Assembly: GCF_000003815.2 (NCBI RefSeq)
Contig: NC_049980.1
Span: 14,240,405 to 14,304,404, forward strand
DNA length: 64,000 nt
Direction: 5' to 3'
Source: Branchiostoma floridae
Taxonomy: Eukaryota > Chordata > Leptocardii > Amphioxiformes > Branchiostomatidae
Position numbers and translations under genes: made by a program. Under the pieces are notes generated by a model, which had not been told where the DNA came from, made no database searches, and saw only the letters and a list, made by a program, of their open reading frames with translations. Positions within the stretch are counted from its first letter, which is position 1. Each line of letters opens with the position of its first letter. Positions 32,957 to 47,720 of the stretch are shown here, piece by piece.

Positions 32957-35900
32957 TTACAGGAAGTAGTGTACCCAGAATACTACACAAAATACCAGGA
33001 ATAGACCAGGAATAAGAATTCTTGTCGCCCGGTCTATTTTCCTGGCCAGACGTGCAGGCCTCGGTGAGAACAGTTGTGGGAGAGGCGGTGGTGGGCCGGT
33101 CTGGGTGCCGGGCAGCCGGAACCGGACAGTCCGCTGGGGCGGCGGAGGGAGGTACTGCAGCAGGTAGTAAGGACGGCAGAAACGGGCCCGCGGGATGCTG
33201 ACTTTGGGCTGGACAAGCTGCCTCTTCCAGGACTCCTGTAAACATCAAGTTGAATTAACTAGTCAATGGCTTCAACTGCACATGCGAAAGGTCAAAAGTG
33301 AACGCTCCTAACCTGTCGACAGTTTTTGTTTTGATACATCATGATACGGATGTGTTTTGCGTGTGTCTCAGAAGCTTTTATCTTTGAAATATCCTCCACA
33401 ATACATTAATGTATCACACCGAACATGCTGGTAATTCAAGCTGTAAACTATTTTTCTTCTCCCGCTGTACAGCACCAGTAGGAACTGTCATGTGCAATCA
33501 GAATTTAGGTGAGTTAAGCATATCAAGCAATGAAGCGTCACTGAAAATCTGAACGAAAACAAACCTTTGCTAGGCCGGTGTAGTGGATGTAGTAGGCCAC
33601 GGCTGTCTCCAACAGTCCACAGAACACCGCCATCAGGCAACCGGCCATCCACACGTCTATGGCACGGGTGTAGGAAATCTAACATACATGGAGATGGACA
33701 ACGATCAACGATTCATGTCGTCAAAAACTAGAAACAAGTCAAAACAAAAAAGATTATTCATCAGCTATGAACTGAATTATATGAAGCTATTAAGGAATAA
33801 CAACCCTGAAACCGAAACAGGGACTGACACTGACTGCCAAGCACCTTTCATCTGTTGCCGAAGCCAAATATCCGTTCAGGTCACCTGATTAAAGCTTCTA
33901 GTCATTTCCAGAAGGACAAAAAGGCTGATCTAAAGCTTTACGGTAAACGCTTTACTCTATGTACAAAAATATTGTGTAGAATCTCTCTATCTGGTTTAGC
34001 TGATTTCTATGTTGCCTGCTCCCTTCTATTACATACGGAATGAATCTGGATACAAATGAATGTGCAACGTACAAACTCCATTGGGTGCTTCAAGTCTGCT
34101 CCCATCACGATTGTTAGCAAGGCAGAGGCGCCGAGAGAGACCCGCCCGATCACCGCGGCAGTCTGAAACCCCATCCACGGACTCATCCAGGACAGCACGA
34201 CGACCATGAGGGTGGGCACGAACGTCCTGAACACGTACAGCCAGATCCGCCGGGACAGGGACAGTTTGATCGTCAGGGTTGTGAAGGAGTTAACCGCTAG
34301 AGAGCAAAGTTACACGGTCAGCAGCCAGTGCCTGTAATGTCTTCAGTCCTAGGAAACTTTGATTAAAGTTATTACAGCCCTGAAAAAGTAGGGCCGGCAG
34401 GCATGGAGTTTGCTTCTTCAATGAGGTTAACCTCCTTGGTATCTTATCTACTTCATCCTAGATTCCGACCGAAGTGATCCAACAAATTACAATTAACGAT
34501 GTTAAACTGAAATGCAATAATGACGCGTATTTTCAACTTCATATTGTAAAAACAATAAAAAGACGTACAATGTTTATTATATATCCTTGCATCAAGTATT
34601 CTACGCCTTAATCTGTTCACAGGGTGGAATACAAGATGTTGTAAGAACAGTCGCAGTACTACTTGTAATTCCATCACTCAGGTGTTCGTTGCCAGCGGCA
34701 ATTAGAATAATAATAATGACAATAATGATAGTAACTATAATAGTAGTAATAATAATAATAATGATGATGATAATATAGTCCATTCCGAGATACCACGAGG
34801 GTTTTTAGACAATAATTGTAATAAGTTGGAATTCTTTTGAATAAAATAATATCTAAGCCCCAACAGCTATGATTTTTTTTTCAGAAAAGTTAATATGGAA
34901 TTTCGAATCTATTTGAATTTCTTTTAATACTTTGGAAACATTTTGAAAGAGATCACACAAAAATCTCTTTATTTACAATAATTTTCAGACATCTGCAGGA
35001 TTCTTTCACTTTTAGAAATATTTCCAAAAAATGGTAAACCTTGCCAAATGGTAGAATTCATTTATTGTCCCACAAAAGTTAGCCCCTTTTGTATGCCCGG
35101 TATTTTTTTTTAGATTTCACTGATGGGCACTGGTGGGTCCTTTGTGGTAGGCCATTGACATGGCACCCAATCATACTTTGCAAGGATGTGTGAATTGCTG
35201 TCTTCCTAGCCCACTGACCCAATATTACAAAAATGGTAAAAAAGTGTAAATAATGTCAAAATGCTGTTACCATTGTTAACAAACTGTTAGAAGTATTCTG
35301 TTCCACATCGTGAATATTTCAAACGTTCTACAGATCGGGGAAAATATTTAGAAAGTTCAAATAGCATTCAAAATATTCCAAAGCGTAAAATCTCCTGGAC
35401 ATATAATTGAAAACAATTGAAAACATTTGTCAATGATGACAATGGCAACCCTCGCGGTGACTTGGAACCGACTAAATGGCCTACCACACCACATGATGAT
35501 GATATTAATACTAACAATAATAATAGCAGGATTTATCTAGGGTCGGTCGGAGGCACAACGTTTTACTAGCCCCTATGGTAACAGTAAACAAACGCCAAAC
35601 ACTCACATACGCAAGGTGAAAACTTGGCGTGACTTTTAAGACTTAAAAAAAGTACCTACTTGGACCCGGGTCTCCGCAGATGTCCGTGTGATGACTACAG
35701 TTGCCCACGTGGTGACCACAATCCCCACATGTGGAACAGTTCAGGAAGGCCGACAGCATACAGTGTTCTACGTCATAGGTACACGCCTCACGGAAGTATG
35801 GGCAAATAACATCTGTGACAACATACAACGTAAAACTAAAAATTTAGAAATTAAGAAAACACGAAAGAGCAATGTTTTTCCCACACCACAGTGTGAGTGC

Positions 35901-38900
35901 ATGGTGACCATGATGTTTGTGATGGGCAAGAGCCAAGACCAAGACGGTGGTTGTCTTGCTCTTGCAGTCCCTAGCATGAGTAAATCGAGCTAGCTTCTAT
36001 TGGTGTTCTACTACTGGTCAGGCTCCAAGCTTGATGACCAACGTCCTCTAAGATAGTAGAATTGGAAATATCCTAATCCTTTATACATAGAGCGTAGAGA
36101 GCCTTTTGTCAGACTGAGAACTGTTTGTTTGAGTTGAAGGCTGTGAGAACTGGTTTCCAAAGTGACAAAGAATTCTGATCTACTATTGGACTGACTTTCA
36201 TAGTACTAAACAAATCATGCGTTGTTCTGGGAATCTCGAGAAGGAGGCCCAATGAGCCCCCAACAGCGAGAGATTTTGTGCCACAAGTTATAGTAATGGA
36301 CTGTTCCATCAAAAAATTAGATAGCTATGCAAACTGTCTCCTAACGTTTTCATCAGATGCCGGTATAAGTGGACCTGTCAACGACATACATTACATTTTT
36401 GTTTGAACGACAGATGCTATCCAAAAGTTGCGAGGTCTCACAAGTATAGACACTGTAGATCATTGTATTGAACACCCGCTCACCGTTGCTGTCATTGGCA
36501 AAGAACGTGCTGTAGGTGGATTCAACAGTTGCCCCCATCAACCTGAACTGTGAGACAACATTGCTGGCGTCGGATGAGATGGGTGCAATTTTGCTCTGCG
36601 CTGACGATACCAGTGTAAACCGCACTCCGTTGTCTGCGATCAGAAATACAAAACATGAAAGCATTCATTTAAAATGTACATGTGGAAACTTTCAGAAAGG
36701 GATTGTCAACAACTACCAGGATCCAACATTCATACAAATCCAAGGAAAGGATCTTGAGTTATGGGTCCTAGCACACATACACAACCAAGAGAACCTGCTG
36801 TCATAAGGTAAAAAGAGAGCCAACCAGAAAGCACAACAAACCTACATGCATGTAGTTGAACAGGGCACTCCTGGTCATCGAATGGGTAGCTATGTAAATC
36901 CACATTACATCGCACCTTCAGTACCTTTCTGCAATGATATAACCAACACTCATATACATGAGCAAAGGCTGAAGATCTTCAGTTTCACATAAGGTAAGTC
37001 AAGTCTACACTCATGACAACTTCTACAAGTCAAGTACGCGACATATTTACCCTCTTTTGGTATGGTATTTCCTTGTCGCCATTTTCGAGGAAATGAACAG
37101 CATCTCTTTTTTCGAAATGAAGCGAAAATCGATCTGAGTGTAGATGTCATCCATAGGATTTATTCATTGACGTTGTGGCCTAGGCAGAATCACAGCACTC
37201 ATAGAAGGCGTGCATCTATATCTTAGACACTTACGTCATCTGAAAGAAAATGAAACCCGAGCTGTGCAGCCACATCTTCAGTGACACGTCCAGCTCCTCC
37301 ACGGCACCGGTACTCGGGTGGACCCTCGGCTTGGTGATCCCCTCAGTTCTCCTGACTTTGTTCCCGAACATCAGGGCGGGAGACCAGAGGAGGGTTGCCG
37401 GTAGCGGCATCCAGCCTGACGGTACCGCCCCGGTCAGACGGTCATCAACCCAGGCTAGATTGTACTCCACCGTCATGGAGAGATTCTAAAAACAAATTAA
37501 TGTTTTATCAGTGATACTGTAACCTTGTAATGTTTCGGTCGTTCTATGTCGGGGTGACCAATTCACCAACTTAATACCGATGTTTCTAACTGTACATGTA
37601 AAGTATTTGTAAAAAGCTCTTTCGCGAACTTAGAATCTTCATTTTTCCCTACTGCGAAACTATATCATTGCGAATGTGCAAAACATTATCAAGTTGCTAA
37701 ATATTGCATGGCACCAGGAGTCCATTAAGTGTCTATCACCATATACAGTCAGTTGAAATCGTTGTATCACAAAAAAAGATTTCTCTAAAGTAATATAACT
37801 ATACCTTACCGCATTCTCCTCTGAGAGCCAGTCAACTCGTTTGATGTAGACACCTGTTGCAACGTCAAACCATTTACCTGTTAATGACAGAATCATTAAT
37901 GAACTGTTGTTAACTTGACAGAATGTTCATCTAAACAGAATAGATCTTGCTATACGTTGTGCCACCTTTTCGTCTCTGCCAGCGCTAAATGTTCGGTAGG
38001 ATTTACTCGTCACATGTAAGTATATACTTTATTATTCACGGTGGTCAAATACGGGCTCAAAATCTCCCATGTCTAGCCGAATTCGAACCTTTTTCCATGA
38101 TGTTCCATTTGACGTATATAATTCGAACCGAACCCGTGTTCTATTTAGGTCATCTGCGGTCATTGCAGGTAAAACCGTGCTTTCTGGCATTTCCCCCCTA
38201 ACTAACTTGAATCAGGCGAAAAACATAGTTTTTAACCAATATAAACAATTTTCTGGACAGTACATCTATGCTTTCACTTTGTTTGTGACCTGTAATATGT
38301 AACGAAGCTACTGACGTTTTTGTTGGTGACCTTGAATATCATAAGTGTTGTTTACACCGGTGTGACAGCGATCTCACCCCCCCGGCGATCTCGCCCCCCC
38401 GGGGGGCGAGATCACTAGCGTTTTCGCCCCTCTTTAGCGTTTTCGCCCCCCCCCCCCCCAGAGCAGCTGGCTACTACATATTACAGGTGCGCTACCTGGT
38501 ACTATACTGCACCTGGGGAGTAACGTATATGGTGTGTTACCTGGTACCTATATGGCACCTTATTACCGTACCGTAAGATGTCATACCTCGAAAGTCGATA
38601 TTATATTGTTCGGTGGAAACATGACATTGAAATGAAAAAAGGCAATTTTTGCAGCTGAGGTGGCATAAAACAGTGCTACTGCGAACGTATAAATCAACAC
38701 CATCTATGGTACGGAATACGTCAGCTATATGTTTTCAATTTGTCACAGTGTTTTCTTTCTTGTGCTGGAAACATTTCCAAAGCACTAACAAAAACACACG
38801 TGAATAATAGTTTCTCATTATAAACACTATCTACGCGCAAGTTGATATAGCTGTTGCTAAATGCTACACAAACACTGGTAAAGTACCTGTCTTAAGAAAC

Positions 38901-41900
38901 ACGGGTAAAAGCATCATTTCCTAAATACTAGAAAAAACAGTAATGTTGGAGGTGAAGATATCCATTGGCCAGGTGCATATACCAAAATGTGCGTTATTCT
39001 AATTAATACCTAATATTTGCATAATTATTAAAGACATTACATAGTTCTTTTGTGGTCACTTCATTGTAGAGACTTCATATTGGAGATATATAGGTTGCTT
39101 GAGGACAGGTGAATACAATGAAATACATCTTATGTCAAGACTCAGGTATATGCAATAATGGGATTTACAAGGGACCAAACCCTCCTTGTCTGAAACAAGT
39201 TCAACTATCTTATTACCATGTAATTACGTTAATATTGATACTATGAATGGAGTTATGTATCAAACTCGTGTACTTATATCATTCTGAAACTACATTTTGT
39301 GATTTATACCAATCAACTTCTAAAATGTCATGTAAACCCATTTGGGGGGGGGGCGAAATCGCTAAAGGGGGCGAGGTAGGGGGGCGAGATCACTAGCCGG
39401 GGAGGGCGAGATCGCTAGTGATTTCGCCCCGGGGGGGCGAGATCGCTAGTGATTTCGCCCCCGGGGGGGCGAGATCACGGGGGGGCGAGAACGCTGTCAC
39501 ACCGGTATCAATTACACCCTCCCGCTCTCCGTGCGGCATGACATGCGTGTAAACATCGTTTAAGATCTCCACCAAGAAGAGTCCAACATAACTCATTGAC
39601 GGCTCAAAATGAACGTAACGGTTTTCCCGAGATTTCTGTTTTTGGGATTTTAAAAAAATGCCTTAGATTTTGAATTATTGGTAATTAAGTGCGAAAAATG
39701 CCATTTTTACGCATATTTTTGACTGTAACTTTGCTTAAAATTAAAAATAAAAAAATCCCCAAAACAGAAAGTTTTATTTGCCTCTCAGATGACGAAAAAT
39801 ATAAAAATCGAGAATTTGCCATGGCACTTGCGGCCCATCTTATCAAGAGTATGGTCGAATTGAAGGCCTTCCTTGAAACAAAAAATGATCGTCTTTGGAA
39901 GCAAAATCGAAACAAAACAACTATCTCAATTCAAACGGGAAGATTCAAACTATCTAAAATTGCGAATTTAATCTTATTTTGAATACATTTTCCTTGTCAT
40001 AACATCTTGTTTATTTTGAAATATTTTACGGTTAGCAAATAGTAGGCCTCTTGTAACCCGATACTCTGTCGAACTCGCATAGCAACGGGAAAGAATACCC
40101 TAGCAACCGACCGCCGTGATTGTACATTTATGTAACGTAGTAGATTAATACCAATATTTTGGACAATGATTTATTAGCACAGTACCAACACACCTCTCTA
40201 ACAATGTGAGGAATTGGTGGAATTTTTTACTTGACAAATTTCTTGTCTATTTTCTTTATTTGTTTGTATTTTTTGTTTACCGTCTTTTCGAGGACTCTCG
40301 TTCTTATCGTATCCAGGAGGTAGGGACTCGCCATTCTTCCACTTGAGGAAGTCCCCCCAGCTAGCGGAGTCCGTGACACCAATGCCGCCCGAGGCGAAGG
40401 CAGCAGCCATGTTTTGCGCCGATATGGTTGTTGTTGTGGGAGGGGGTGGGGTTGTTGTCGGCGGGGGTGTTGTTGTAGGAGGCTTATAACAGATAGACTC
40501 TTCCTGTATTTCCCCTAGAAATAAATGTCGATTGAACGGTATGATAGAACTGTTGTAAATCTGAATGTAAAGTTTGTTATTCCGTTTCCAAAAAGATTAT
40601 TCCAACGGAAACACAATTCGAATTTGATAGACTTTTGAAACCTTCAGACATTTTGATAGTTGATCTTTCGAACAGCGAATCAAAGCCTACGTCATCAGGA
40701 GTTCAAGAGCGGCAGACGTTGGGGACATGCATTGAATAGAATCGAAGAGAAATTCACAATATCATAAAAGAAGAAAAGAAGGAATTTACGAAAACTAGAA
40801 GAATGTTTCACGGAGGTATGAGATCTTCGGTTTCTTGTTTATCTCAGACGTACAGCGTCAGGTCTCACCTACACACTCGCAGATAGAGCGCTCATTGCTA
40901 GTGCAATCTCTGTCCTCGTATCCGTCACCCTTCTTTATTCTGACGCAGTTTCTATCGCCCGGGTCTCCATCCTTCCATGATAGGTATGGCTCCGTATTAT
41001 CATCACAGTACCGAAACTCAAATGTAGTACCCTCTCTCTTCCTCCTCCTCCTATCGCTACTCTCTTGCTCACCACCACCATCACTACCCTCAGTCACAAC
41101 CTACAGGACATACCAAGCAAACATTGGATGAGTACAAGAGTGTGAAGAATGTGTATCCAAATTGAGCCGTGTGCTGATTTGCTTTGAGTTCCCACATATC
41201 TCAATTCCCTTACACGTAAGATTACTCTAAAGACTTGTGTAATACATTTCTTACACATTGTAATAAATTGCAAAATAGAGACACAGTGGCTGTCTCTCTG
41301 TCATTTTGGAATGAACTGACACGAACCTCGACTTTCCTAATCCCGATCCACACATCTTTGTCCAACTCATCGTCCGCTAACCGCATGAGAATGTTAAACT
41401 CTGCTTCATCGTTTGCCATCGCAAGATGTCCTCCCTTGGACAGACAGTTCTGCTCAGCTTCCGCGTGTCTTTTGTCTTCGTCGACCAGGAGGTACATCGA
41501 TGGGGAGTTGTAGTAAGAGGCCCAGCCATCGCTGGCCATGCAAGGTTGGTCTGCAGTATAGCAAAACCAATTCTCAAGTCAAGACACATCCATCAACAAA
41601 AAAGTTTGAAAACTTAAATTTGATCAATCACCAGTTCACCATTACTTATCAATTGTCTAGTATACTTATCATTGAAAATCTCATGTATTACCCTTTAAAC
41701 GATGCCAACATAGTGTCCGACCCACTAAAGAAATATTAATACTTATGATCTTTATTGCACGTTCATGCCCGTGGGCTTATTGCAAACAAAGTTTTTTAAG
41801 TGTAGTCATGACAATCAAGGAATCACTTTGAAGTACAATGTATTTTCAGTAATATAACACATTATGCTAATCATTAAAAACAAACGACATAGGATCAAGG

Positions 41901-43250
41901 GAAATTTTCCCTACCTATGGACTCACTTGTTAGATACAACTCGAGGTTGTACGATCATAACAAAAACAGATCATCATGATAAAGCAACAAACAAGTCTTC
42001 CTATGATATGATATGTAATGTAACGCAACAAGCAAAGTTATCACACACCAGTGACTCTGCTGGTATCATTGAACAGATCACTGCAGATGTCTGTTCCAAT
42101 TCTCTGACTGATAAGGACCTTGTCTGGCTGCTTTGTCTCTCTTCAAATGACACTCCCTTTCTGCCACGCTACATTCGGCAACCAGCTATTATCTACACGC
42201 TACATTAACCAACCTGCAATAAATACACGTTACAACAACCTACCCACAATAGGTTACGCCATTAAGTTTAACCTCGGTGACATTATGTTGCAAATGATGT
42301 AAGCATTAATGGTTTACGATTATTGCCCACAAAGTGTGTGTATGTATCATAACTACAATTTACTTTATGGTCTTCCATAGCTTCTTTTTAAGTCATAGTT
42401 CTAGCGTCCTTTTGTTTAGTCGATATGAAGTATTTTCTGTCATTTGCATTGAAATGTGAAAAATGCTGTCGGCGGCAGGCGACGTATTTATGAGCCAAAT
42501 TACGAGTAACATAATTGCTTTCTTCATTTTCCCACAACACGTATTACGAGGAATAGTATCGGTTGATGGCTTAGAAGAAACAGCAGCCGTGGGGGGAATT
42601 AGATGATTGTCGCCTGAGACTGTGCCCACGACCATTTACTTTACGTCTTGTGCAGTTTAGTGTCTTATGTATCATACTTTTTGTTCCCGATAGCTGCCCG
42701 GCCGGGCCACGGTTTGGAAATATGACGTGAGCCTGTTAAGGCTAAGTCTACCTAAATATTTTCAGTTAGCCAATAAATTTACCCGATGATTACATGTCTC
42801 TGCATCTCTGTTGTTCCAAAACCTACCGTATATAGCTACAGATAGTAATTAGTACCAATTAATGTCCCAATACCTCAACTGGTACGGTAGCAGCCTACAG
42901 CGGAGCTCCTTGTTCTGTTACACTTGCTAAATTATATTCAAACTGGGAGACACCGGTTCTATCCAGGGTAGGGGCATCTTGCTTGGGCCTGCTCCCGAAA
43001 ATGGGGGTCCTGTGTTTGAGGAGGTGCGACACCTCTCTGTGAAATATACCCTGCTACTGAAACAGCAATGTAACTCGCTGTCGGTCTGAACGAATACTAG
43101 CTTACTGTCTCAAAGAATGCATGTGAAGAAGACATGTTCTTAGCGCTAGCGCCATTTACCTGCCGACGGTGTAGTATTATTTCCACTGCCAAGCACGGTC
43201 CCGCACAGGAAGAAGCCCAGCAGCCCTTGAAGGGAAAGTAACAGCTTCAT
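32957..43250 (-). CDS. C-type lectin domain fused to a Cys-loop ligand-gated ion channel
   Basis: Twelve exons join with every phase consistent to 700 residues: 43160-43250, 41327-41550, 40869-41100, 40281-40514, 37810-37877, 37235-37485, 36846-36928, 36484-36633, 35660-35812, 34073-34296, 33565-33678, 32957-33235. Order: signal peptide (1-~21); C-type lectin domain (34-181; C66, WIGI 98-101, C157/C171, ICEC); Thr/Pro linker (~194-213); channel ligand-binding domain with loop A WSPALMFGN; 13-residue Cys-loop C374-C388 with FDDQEC; cysteine-rich insert in loop C (445-495); TM1 (~513-533), TM2 after R547 (VSLGASALLTIV), TM3 with SYTRAIDVW (572-580), TM4 ending at the C-terminus. TM2/TM3 resemble glycine/GABA-A anion channels, but the Pro-Ala before R0' is Ile-Gly. 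The lectin domain lacks EPN/QPD sugar motifs. Ligand unknown. Confidence 0.92.
34704..34778. repeat. AAT/ATG microsatellite
   Basis: (AATAAT)n and (GATGAT)n simple repeat in intron 9 of the lectin-channel gene. It explains the low-complexity Ile/Met frames on both strands. Confidence 0.85.
35660..35812 (-). other. Exon 9 of the lectin-channel gene: Cys/His-rich loop C cassette
   Basis: A 153-base exon, phase 1 at both edges (acceptor TCACAG, donor A|GTAGGT), encoding residues 445-495. It has eight cysteines at 448, 455, 462, 470, 473, 476, 483 and 490, i.e. C-x6-C-x6-C-x7-C-x2-C-x2-C-x6-C-x6-C, plus five histidines (461, 478, 479, 485, 486). It sits between beta strand 9 (QFRLMGATVESTYSTFF) and beta strand 10 (FTTLTIKLSLSRR), exactly where loop C caps the agonist site. 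Skipping it would join N444 through Ala to V497 in frame with a normal-length loop C. I do not recognise the fold. Confidence 0.85.
38356..39506. mobile_element. Foldback-type element with GC-rich internal repeats
   Basis: Both ends carry ACCGGTGTGACAGCG in inverted orientation (38356 and ending 39506). Inside each end is an array of a ~20 base motif, GGGGGGCGAGATCxCTAG, in alternating orientation (38371-38460 and 39340-39496). The middle 880 bases are AT-rich and non-coding. It lies in intron 4 of the lectin-channel gene. Flanking target duplication is unclear because the tip itself (CACCGGTG) is palindromic. Confidence 0.75.
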
Positions 43251-44538: not shown

Positions 44539-46239
44539 GGCAGGATAGACTATTCACATGCAGTTTGACGGACTCCTCCCCACAGCCGGTTCGTCGACGC
44601 CATGGCTACGGAAACACAGAAGATCCACAGAAAGACCGCCAGCAGGTTTTCGGGGTGTAGAAGAGAGACCGAGTATTTACCTCGTTTGCGTTTACAGGGA
44701 GTATAGAATTCGAAGATTGCCCTTTTAGTGTCATGAAGATTTCGTATTTTATTTTGCTTTGTGAAACTGCGAGAAGTTGTTGCTGTGTAGGGACGAATGT
44801 GAGTTGTCTGCGTTTTGCACGTGTATCGCTCTTTGTCATGCTGAGGTCCGTTCTTCTCGCAGACACTGGCGTGCCGGGCATTATGTATGGGTTATGGAAG
44901 AAAGCATGCCTCACTGCGAGAATAGACGCTTATTTTGGGCGTTTGTTAGACATCACAGGTATATGCAGTACTGTCTGAAAGGACGTCGACGGAGAAGGCA
45001 AGTGACACCGCCGGCACGGCCGACCCCAGCATGACTGACGCAGCAGCCTTGTGAATGAGCCGGACGTTCCATAGCAGAGCACCAGTAACACTGTTTTTGA
45101 CAGTGAGACTCACCAGGACAAGTCTGCGATATCTACGACCTTCTGGGAACGGGTAGGGAAACTTGCCGACGACAGAGAAGATAGAGTAGTTTCCTACGGG
45201 CGTAGGATTTACAAGCCAAGCAGGTACGCAAGGTTTTGAGCTCGCCGCCATTTTTGGCGTCTTGTGGAATTTTCCATTTTGATTTGTCTTCCTACGTTGG
45301 CTGTTTTTTCTAGTGGATCCCTCGGCTGTTTTCTTTCTTGTTCCTTCATGATTTTATTTTCCTGTTTTTCCCCTTTTGTATGATTATGGTGTGTTTTGTT
45401 GGTCAGCAACTATTCTGTCGTTCATTTCGTTTAGCGACTCGTAATTTGCATATGTTTGCGCATCGCACATGTTTCGCGTGCGCAGGTGTGAGTGATTCTA
45501 TTTGGTAAAATAGGCTTGGTATAATTAATTTTGTGTTGTCTCATTTGAGTTAGGTATGTTGATACAGCTGAGCCACCGCTAGGGCTGCCGTTTACCCCGT
45601 CTTTTCGCCATAGGAGCCTTTATGAAGCGGTACAACGTTGTTCCAGTTTCCGCACGCTCGGAGCAGAGCCCGACCTTTTTTTATCAAGAAAGAGTCGGAG
45701 GCTTCAACTTATCACTGGTAGCTCTATGGGTGAGTTACGTTGTTTGAAAGCCTTTAGACAGTATTTGGTATAGTTTTTTGTCTGCCTATCACGTTTGTTG
45801 TTGTTGTATGAGTCGAACGTATTGCCTTATTTTACGTATTTTCCTTTGTTTTTTTCTGTATATTTGCTTTGTTTAATTTTGAAGTTAGGTTCGGCGATTC
45901 TGGGCATTGCATTTTGTGGACCAGCCAGCATTCAGCAACCCGAAAAGCTGAGGGACCAGGCCTCAAGACGCTCGGACAGCTGTCAACCATTGCGGCAGTT
46001 TTCCTAAGGTGTGTCCTATATCTCAGCTAGAGGTTGTTATCTTGTTGCTCGTCAGGTCGGCAGACAACCTCGAGTTTGTAGCGAGATTTCAGGTGATTTG
46101 ATTTTTGTTTATGAGCCGATTTGCTTTTTGTTGGGTTTCTCGCTTGACAGGTTCTTGGACAACCCTAGGTAGAAAAAAAAAAAGTGTTTGCAGTTTTTTG
46201 TCTGGTTGGTGTCATGCAATAGTTTGTTGGACAATTGAA

Positions 46240-47720
46240 CTGTTGGACAGTTTTTGTTTGCTGTTGTCGTACGACATGCTGTAAACAACCCCAGAGAGAT
46301 AACAAGACTGCTGGAAAGTTTTGTTGTTGTTGTCATGCGACAGGTTGTTGGACAACCCCAGGTAAGTAACAAGACTGTTGGACAGTTTTGTTTGTAGTTG
46401 TCATGCGACAGGTTGTTGGACAACCCCAGGTAAGTGTACAAGACTATTGGATAGTTTTGTTTGTGGATGGACGACGGGTTGTGGGATAGCACCAGGCAGG
46501 TAACAGGACTGTTGGACAGTTTTGTTTGTTGATGTACGACAGGTTGTGGGACAACACCAGGCAAGTAACAAGACTGTTGGACAGTTTGATTTGTTGATGT
46601 ACGACAGGCTGTGGGACGGCACCAGGCAAGTAACAGGACTGTTGGACAGTTTTGTTTGTTGATGTACGACAGGCTGTGGGACAGCACCAGGCAGGTAACA
46701 AGACTGTTGGACAGTTTTGTTTGTTGATGTACGACAGGCTGTGGGACGGCACCAGGCAAGTAACAGGACTGTCGGACAGTTGGTTTGTTGATGTACGACA
46801 GGTTGTGGGACAACACCAGGCAAGTAACAGGACTGTTGGGCAGTTTGGTTCGTTGATGTACGACAAGCTGTGGGACAGCACCAGGCAAGTAACAGGACTG
46901 TTGGACAGTTTGGTTCGTTGATGTACGATAGGCTGTGGGACAGCACTAGGCAGGTAACAAGGCTGTTGAACAGTTTGGTTTGTTGATGTACGGCGGGTTG
47001 TGGGACAGCACCAACCAGGTAACAAGACTGTTGGACAGTTTGGTTGGTTGATGTACGACAGGCTGTGGGACAGCACCAGGCAAGTAACAAGACTGTTGGA
47101 CAGTTTGGTTTGTTGTCGTGCGACAGGCAGTGGGACAGCACCAGGCAGGCAACAGGACTGTTGGACAGTTTGGTTTGTTGTCGTGCGACAGGCAGTGAGA
47201 CAACGCCAGGTAGAGTAACAACAGTGTACGACAGTTTTTTGTTTGCTGTTGTCGTATGACAGGTTGTTGGACAACCCCGGGTAGGTAACAAGACTGTTGG
47301 ACAGTTTTGTTTGTTGTTGTCGTGCGACAGGTTGGTTAGATAACCCCAGAGAAGTAAAAAGGCTGCTCGACAGTTTTGTGACGCTGTGCTGTCGTACGGC
47401 AGATTGTTGAGCAACTCCAGGAAGCCAACAAGACTGTTGGACATTTTTTGTTTGTTGTTGTCGTGCGACAGGTTGTTAGACAACCCCAGAGAAGTAAAAA
47501 GGCTGTTAGGCAGTTTTGTGGGTTGTCGTACGATACATTGTTTAGCAACCCCAGGTAAGCAGCAAAACTGTTGGACATTTTTGTTTGTTGTTGTCGTGTG
47601 ACAGGTTGTTAGGCAACCTCAGAGAATTAAAAAGGCTGTTAGATAGTTTTGTGTGTTGTTGTACGACAGATTGTTGAGTAACCCCAGGTAAGCAGCAAGA
47701 CTGTTGGAAAGTTTTTGGAC
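46240..47720. repeat. 65 bp minisatellite, ~22 degenerate units
   Basis: The unit core GACTGTTGGACAG recurs at 46507, 46572, 46637, 46702 and so on with a 65-base period; units also share GTACGACAGGCTGTGGGACAG and CACCAGGCAAGTAACA. Units become more diverged and variable in length at both edges, with related motifs traceable to about 48200. No unit has a stop codon on the minus strand in any frame in the core, which produces long overlapping artificial frames there. Confidence 0.9.

Follow-up and report, generated by a model that had tools for sequence, protein, structure and literature searches.

Does a single gene of the lancelet Branchiostoma floridae really join a C-type lectin domain (CTLD) to a complete Cys-loop ion channel and, if so, what might such a protein do? 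The question is raised by a locus on the minus strand of the window--that is, the whole stretch of 64,000 nucleotides analysed here, at 14.24-14.30 Mb of contig C2 in an assembly of 513,431,437 bases and 431 contigs--from which an earlier note had drawn one 12-exon, 700-codon frame of a kind for which it knew no described example. Judging by its sequence, the gene very probably encodes a genuine chimera, a channel subunit from a family of Cys-loop receptors that may be called 'adhesion-type'. Its best explanation, with a probability of roughly 0.55, is as a module-bearing Cys-loop subunit of an expanded subfamily (about 28 loci) that would act as a recognition-coupled ion channel.

Rebuilding the gene gives 12 exons running from 43250 to 32957 (Table 1), whose 2103 nt encode 700 residues and a stop codon with no internal stops; all 11 introns have GT-AG boundaries and compatible phases, so that the gene model proposed earlier is upheld. 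In a Pfam-A search, this protein matches Lectin_C (PF00059) at residues 59-180 (E 7.3e-9, 36.8 bits against a cut-off of 22.6), Neur_chan_LBD at residues 247-434 (E 3.9e-16, 59.6 bits against 26) and Neur_chan_memb at residues 520-618 (E 1.1e-9, 39.3 bits against 28.1). Both domains that define the pentameric ligand-gated ion channels (pLGICs)--the ligand-binding domain (LBD) and the transmembrane domain--thus lie above their cut-offs within one frame, and the lectin part, searched by itself, matches LY75 and Collectin-11, as expected of a member of the CTLD fold family. Among proteins in the PDB, glycine receptor alpha-2 scores best (E 5.2e-29), with an alignment that reaches residue 698 and takes in the fourth membrane segment (M4); glycine and GABA-A receptors lead the matches, placement within this clade being by best match. 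The four membrane segments that had been claimed are supported by the glycine receptor alignment, which covers residues 498-698 and ends in M4. The canonical 13-residue Cys-loop is confirmed: a C-x13-C element with YPFD occupies residues 374-388 (CNVDLHSYPFDDQEC) and conforms to the Y/FPxD loop motif of Cys-loop or Pro-loop receptors (PMC4795631).

A search of the same genome with the window model finds a paralogue on the minus strand of contig C8 (23.838 to 23.827 Mb), in which two CTLD exons, a Pro/Thr stalk, LBD exons, a cysteine-rich exon, M1 and the last exon follow one another in the order seen in the window. The two genes align in 12 pieces that are 48-93% identical and free of stops; the sequence of exon 4 of the window corresponds to two separate exons in C8. 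Because this second locus shows the same domain order, a chance origin of that order in the window is excluded. Comparison of the two copies gives proportions of synonymous and nonsynonymous differences (pS and pN) of 0.78 and 0.29 in the CTLD, where these are quoted in place of a ratio of substitution rates (dN/dS) on account of saturation of dS, and of 0.73 and 0.14 in the LBD; dN/dS is 0.32 in the stalk and 0.20 in the transmembrane and C-terminal part. The substitution pattern is purifying in the lectin and channel halves alike, and silent differences near saturation, set against few replacements, therefore indicate that both halves have long been kept as protein. Taken with the Pfam domains and the open frame, the paralogue lends good support to the claim that a single gene encodes both the lectin domain and the complete Cys-loop channel.

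As a separate matter, the C8 copy (L039/L040, 23.826-23.843 Mb) contains tandem partial exons: the CTLD start occurs five times, a piece of the LBD six times, exon 8 four times and M1 five times. Several of these lie beside N gaps; microduplication and an assembly effect are both possible.

Could the window nevertheless hold two genes? Because exon 4 contains the stalk together with the first residues of the LBD, this question reduces to the join between exons 3 and 4. Tracing the frame of exon 4 back from its splice site to the first stop upstream reveals no methionine; one does lie inside the exon (QNMAAAF), and by eye it is not followed by a signal peptide, which a channel-only gene beginning at exon 4 would lack. 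Intron 3 contains neither AATAAA nor ATTAAA, and exon 3, if read through unspliced, meets a stop within four codons. The link between exons 4 and 5, about which the earlier note had its doubts, is well founded: LBD is encoded by each of them, and the corresponding exons are consecutive in C8, C2:11.13M and C2:11.116M.

The window gene also has company. An exon-6 consensus query of 74 residues, run against this B. floridae genome, found 29 matches (E 2e-31 to 7e-4), which are counted as 28 loci inasmuch as one is a partial duplicate adjoining another. Extracellular modules lie upstream, on the channel's strand, in 16 of the 19 loci sampled; at 15 of these 16 at least one module exceeds its Pfam cut-off, and at five--the window, C8, C17:17.57M, C9:13.27M and C19:3.69M--a CTLD is present. 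The view of the window gene as a solitary curiosity is thus given up: it belongs to a module-bearing channel family and has a paralogue of the same order on C8. A genome-wide search with PF02932 did not tell this subfamily apart from the remaining pLGICs and was dropped. A further pLGIC group, which the exon-6 query did not list, occurs on C5 (24.39-24.72 Mb), C7 (22.67-22.98 Mb), C4, C9, C14 and C12; in this group one LBD exon spans profile positions of about 45-120.

Whether these modules belong to the same genes as the channels can be judged from strand, from controls and from splice phase. By six-frame tblastn (E up to 1e-4, or 0.01 for the window locus), the module matches in the 16 positive loci are all on the channel's strand, with none opposite; were the modules unrelated neighbours, about half would be expected in antisense. 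A looser cut-off adds one short, repeat-like antisense match, in the module-free locus L041. Ordinary pLGIC loci carry no such modules, either by Pfam (0 of 3, with 3.3 kb upstream each) or by tblastn (0 of 6, with 3.3-4 kb upstream and one repeat match set aside). The control stretches are shorter than those at certain sampled loci, and the controls are classed as ordinary by their Pfam match, not by a tree. A match of the F58_C17b seed in control L057 (19 aa, E 8.7e-5) was judged a repeat, since the same string matches L041 (antisense, E 0.002) and L050; other Pfam matches in the controls are LBD exons (L057) and a sub-threshold kinase (L058).

As for phase, relatives C9:13.27M and C17:17.57M, read by eye, have upstream a phase-1 exon resembling a signal peptide, as does the window gene, and from that exon through the modules (1-1 exons) to the LBD their phases agree. 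A splice-site script places the best donor in phase 1 in 15 of 17 module exons; six lack an acceptor over threshold, and three (SUEL, Methyltransf_FA-a and the F5/8C of C9:3.49M) have their best acceptor in phase 2. In most relatives the splice phases agree less well than in these two, and the module-channel joins there are probable.

Table 1. Exons of the window gene (positions within the window) and modules upstream of the channel at the 16 module-positive loci (contig and position)
Feature	Position	Strand	Content	Remark
Exon 1	43160..43250	-	start codon and hydrophobic, signal-peptide-like segment (by eye)	ends in phase 1
Exon 2	41327..41550	-	CTLD, first half	57% identity with C8 paralogue
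Exon 3	40869..41100	-	CTLD, second half, and charged insert with RRRRKR (residues 122-127)	
Exon 4	40281..40514	-	Pro/Thr stalk and start of LBD	physical join within single exon
Exon 5	37810..37877	-	LBD	
Exon 6	37235..37485	-	LBD, loop A region	WSPA replaces WxPD
Exon 7	36846..36928	-	Cys-loop CNVDLHSYPFDDQEC	
Exon 8	36484..36633	-	LBD	
Exon 9	35660..35812	-	cysteine-rich segment (8 Cys), loop C region	
Exon 10	34073..34296	-	pre-M1, M1, M2	R0', L9'
Exon 11	33565..33678	-	M3	
Exon 12	32957..33235	-	M3-M4 loop, M4, stop	74% identity with C8
Window locus			CTLD	Pfam
C8 locus			CTLD	Pfam
Relative	C17:17.57M		CTLD, F5/8C	
Relative	C17:17.58M		Methyltransf_FA, F5/8C	
Relative	C9:13.27M		CTLD, Sushi, TSP1	
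Relative	C19:3.69M		CTLD; EGF	EGF sub-threshold
Relative	C4:10.994M		SUEL, Methyltransf_FA, TSP1; Sushi, EGF-like	Sushi and EGF-like sub-threshold
Relative	C4:11.0065M		TSP1	
Relative	C4:11.030M		EGF-type, Methyltransf_FA, TSP1	
Relative	C4:11.023M		Methyltransf_FA, TSP1	tblastn only
Relative	C4:11.076M		Sushi, TSP1	
Relative	C4:6.055M		Sushi, EGF, TSP1	Sushi at its cut-off
Relative	C5:26.30M		EGF array	
Relative	C2:10.77M		EGF array	
Relative	C2:11.116M		fibrinogen-C	by eye two copies, then TTTEEPP linker
Relative	C9:3.49M		pentraxin, F5/8C	

Three further observations may be added. The C17:17.57M gene (L042, C17:17563001-17563898) ends in a tandem array of several near-identical M3 exons ('RAYDVWMAGCLVMA...'), which may represent alternative exons or an artefact of assembly. 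Within intron 4 of the window gene (window 38360-39510), GC-rich inverted motifs, gatctcgccccc and gggggcgagatc, lie about 1.1 kb apart and resemble the ends of transposable elements. Outside the gene, at 46109-47618 of the window, lies an array resembling a minisatellite; its open frames, on the minus strand, reach 405 codons and have a repeat unit of the 'TNQTVQQSCYLPGAVPQPVVHQ' type.

What kind of channel stands behind the modules? The exon-9 region was read in six members (the window, C8, two on C17, C2:11.13M and C4:10.985M), all of which have a cysteine-rich exon between the Cys-loop and M1, with seven cysteine columns invariant throughout and one further cysteine that shifts. This exon occupies the place of loop C in canonical receptors, where the alignment to the glycine receptor leaves 98 query residues, against 41 of the receptor, unaligned. 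Its profile has no convincing match in the PDB (best E 0.4), and the fold predicted for the exon alone (mean predicted local distance difference test score, pLDDT, of 48) is useless. In Cys-loop receptors the canonical agonist site is formed by loop C and by the WxPD of loop A; neither is present in canonical form in the window protein, which has WSPA at 317 and the cysteine-rich exon 9. These changes concern the transmitter site and leave membership of the fold family untouched.

In the pore-lining M2 segment, R0' and L9' are kept in all five copies read, a glutamate at -1' occurs in none of them, and neither does the P-2' A-1' pair; in the window protein the residues before M2 are I G R, which departs from the P-2' A-1' R0' of the GlyR/GABA-A clade, and its M1-M2 loop is two residues longer. 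The description of this segment as GlyR/GABA-A-like therefore stands as regards R0' and L9' but fails for the proline-alanine pair and for the length of the loop. Given these residues and the altered loops A and C, a gated pore is likely in family members; a nicotinic-type cation pore is unlikely, because there is no glutamate ring at -1'; and the transmitter site, set against the general anatomy of such receptors, would be altered and is doubtful in its classical form.

A family with recognition ectodomains suggests channels that, as a class, would sense or take hold of extracellular targets. In the explanation favored here, the subunit comprises a signal peptide, a C-type lectin domain, a Pro/Thr stalk, the LBD and then four membrane segments; in its subfamily, exons for adhesion or recognition modules, many of them in phase 1, precede one channel core with a cysteine-rich loop C exon. 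Five modules would then stand on stalks above the pore, where they might bind a ligand (a glycan, matrix or a microbial surface) or tether the channel to it, and clustering or tension from such contact could open the Leu-9' gate, with a classical transmitter at loop C either dispensed with or acting alongside. Recognition by way of the modules, and control of gating or placement by the lectin domain, are what we infer from this architecture. A bolder version, held tentatively and with less confidence than recognition coupling itself, sees in the family an ionotropic counterpart of adhesion G protein-coupled receptors (GPCRs): at least 16 or so lancelet genes, whose shuffled lectin, pentraxin, fibrinogen, sushi, EGF and TSP1 modules would read glycans, matrix or microbes, whose pore would be opened by contact, not by transmitter, and whose loop C region would have been given over to a cysteine-rich module.

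Several observations weigh against a recognition-coupled channel. Some concern the lectin domain. The calcium and sugar motifs of CTLDs are EPN or QPD, and WND, some CTLDs being without them; the window copy has DPG (151) and YED (166) instead, and calcium-dependent sugar binding may have been lost from it. The C8 copy has EPN and YAD, and C17:17.57M has EPN and WND, both intact. Sugar binding is accordingly graded as plausible for the family and doubtful for the window copy, because the motifs are altered in the latter and kept in C17:17.57M. Moreover, the charged insert of the window CTLD (EGSDGGGEQESSDRRRRKR; exon 3, 41100-40869), which is absent from C8, includes at residues 122-127 the string RRRRKR, which resembles a furin site, and the CTLD could be cleaved there. 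Others concern the gene model and the assembly: three splice sites score low (exon 2 donor, exon 10 donor and exon 11 acceptor), scores overall being mixed to good; intron 4 contains AATAAA five times and ATTAAA once, which makes possible a shorter, soluble and channel-less isoform ending there; in C8, assembly gaps lie about where M2-M3 should be and about the position of exon 1; and C17:17.57M has, in this assembly, a one-base frameshift within a Thr/Ala repeat. Still others concern the family: upstream DNA was sampled at 19 of the 28 loci, the remaining nine lying outside the sample; three of the 19 show no module, namely C2:11.132M (7.1 kb), C2:10.796M (3.3 kb) and C9:8.18M (5.5 kb, with gaps); and both best splice sites are in phase 1 in only 8 of the 17 module exons.

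The main rival accepts the chimera as real, but has the modules merely anchor or place the receptor--on the glycocalyx, the basal lamina or a partner cell--with gating left to a small ligand in the LBD. The module type varies among members and the channel core is constant, which fits modules that set location and a core that sets gating, and the LBD is the most constrained part of the protein (pN 0.14); against this, the cysteine-rich exon in the loop C region and the WSPA in place of WxPD cast doubt on the very transmitter site that such ordinary gating would use. On balance, anchoring with ordinary ligand gating seems somewhat unlikely. It is improbable that this family member is decaying or unable to conduct, as a decoy or dominant-negative subunit would be: the altered CTLD motif and loops, and the local partial-exon duplications and gaps of the C8 copy, could be read in that way, but the 700-codon frame is open, the pattern relative to C8 is purifying in the CTLD, stalk, LBD and transmembrane groups, and the pore residues R0' and L9' are kept. 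Least probable, and largely rejected, is an adjacent pair of genes, one for a secreted lectin and one for a channel, merged only on paper: the exons are joined here from sequence evidence and an unspliced exon 3 would soon end, but the exon shared by stalk and LBD has neither its own start before the splice site nor a signal peptide, intron 3 offers no polyadenylation-type hexamer of the two sought, C8 repeats the same domain order, and modules keep to the channel's strand at 16 of 16 positive loci and are absent from ordinary pLGIC loci.

A recognition-coupled channel of this kind may be set beside several known systems. With glycine and GABA-A subunits the window protein has in common an LBD, a 13-residue Cys-loop, homology over M1-M4, R0' and L9'; it adds to these an N-terminal CTLD and stalk and the cysteine-rich exon of the loop C region, and it differs in the absence of P-2' A-1' and in the longer M1-M2 loop. 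In the polycystin-1 family, too, a membrane protein related to channels bears a C-type lectin domain, with further adhesion modules in relatives; polycystin-1, however, is a TRP-like protein of 11 membrane segments, whose fold is unrelated to that of pLGICs and which has no pLGIC domains. Adhesion GPCRs likewise carry mosaic ectodomains (EGF, TSP1, SUEL and others) on one conserved membrane receptor core; these are seven-helix receptors with a GAIN domain, and not ion channels. Among pLGICs themselves, a bacterial multidomain example is DeCLIC. Bacterial multidomain pLGICs with PBP-I or Cache/MCP-N domains also have an extra N-terminal recognition domain on a pLGIC core, as described by Tasneem et al. 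(PMC549065); their extra domains bind small molecules, whereas the lancelet modules are animal adhesion and lectin domains.

The same source, in its remarks on architecture, contrasts simple animal Cys-loop receptors with diverse bacterial ones (PMC549065). A later pLGIC inventory discarded protein termini, left domain architectures to later work and described the domain associations of pLGICs as known only at the genome level (PMC4795631). A literature search found no description of an animal pLGIC whose ectodomain includes a lectin or adhesion module. A family of Cys-loop subunits built in this mosaic way would show that, in a chordate relative, adhesion and lectin modules have been coupled to fast ion channels; it would also provide a ready experimental system for asking whether a tethered recognition domain, instead of a transmitter, can drive a pLGIC core.

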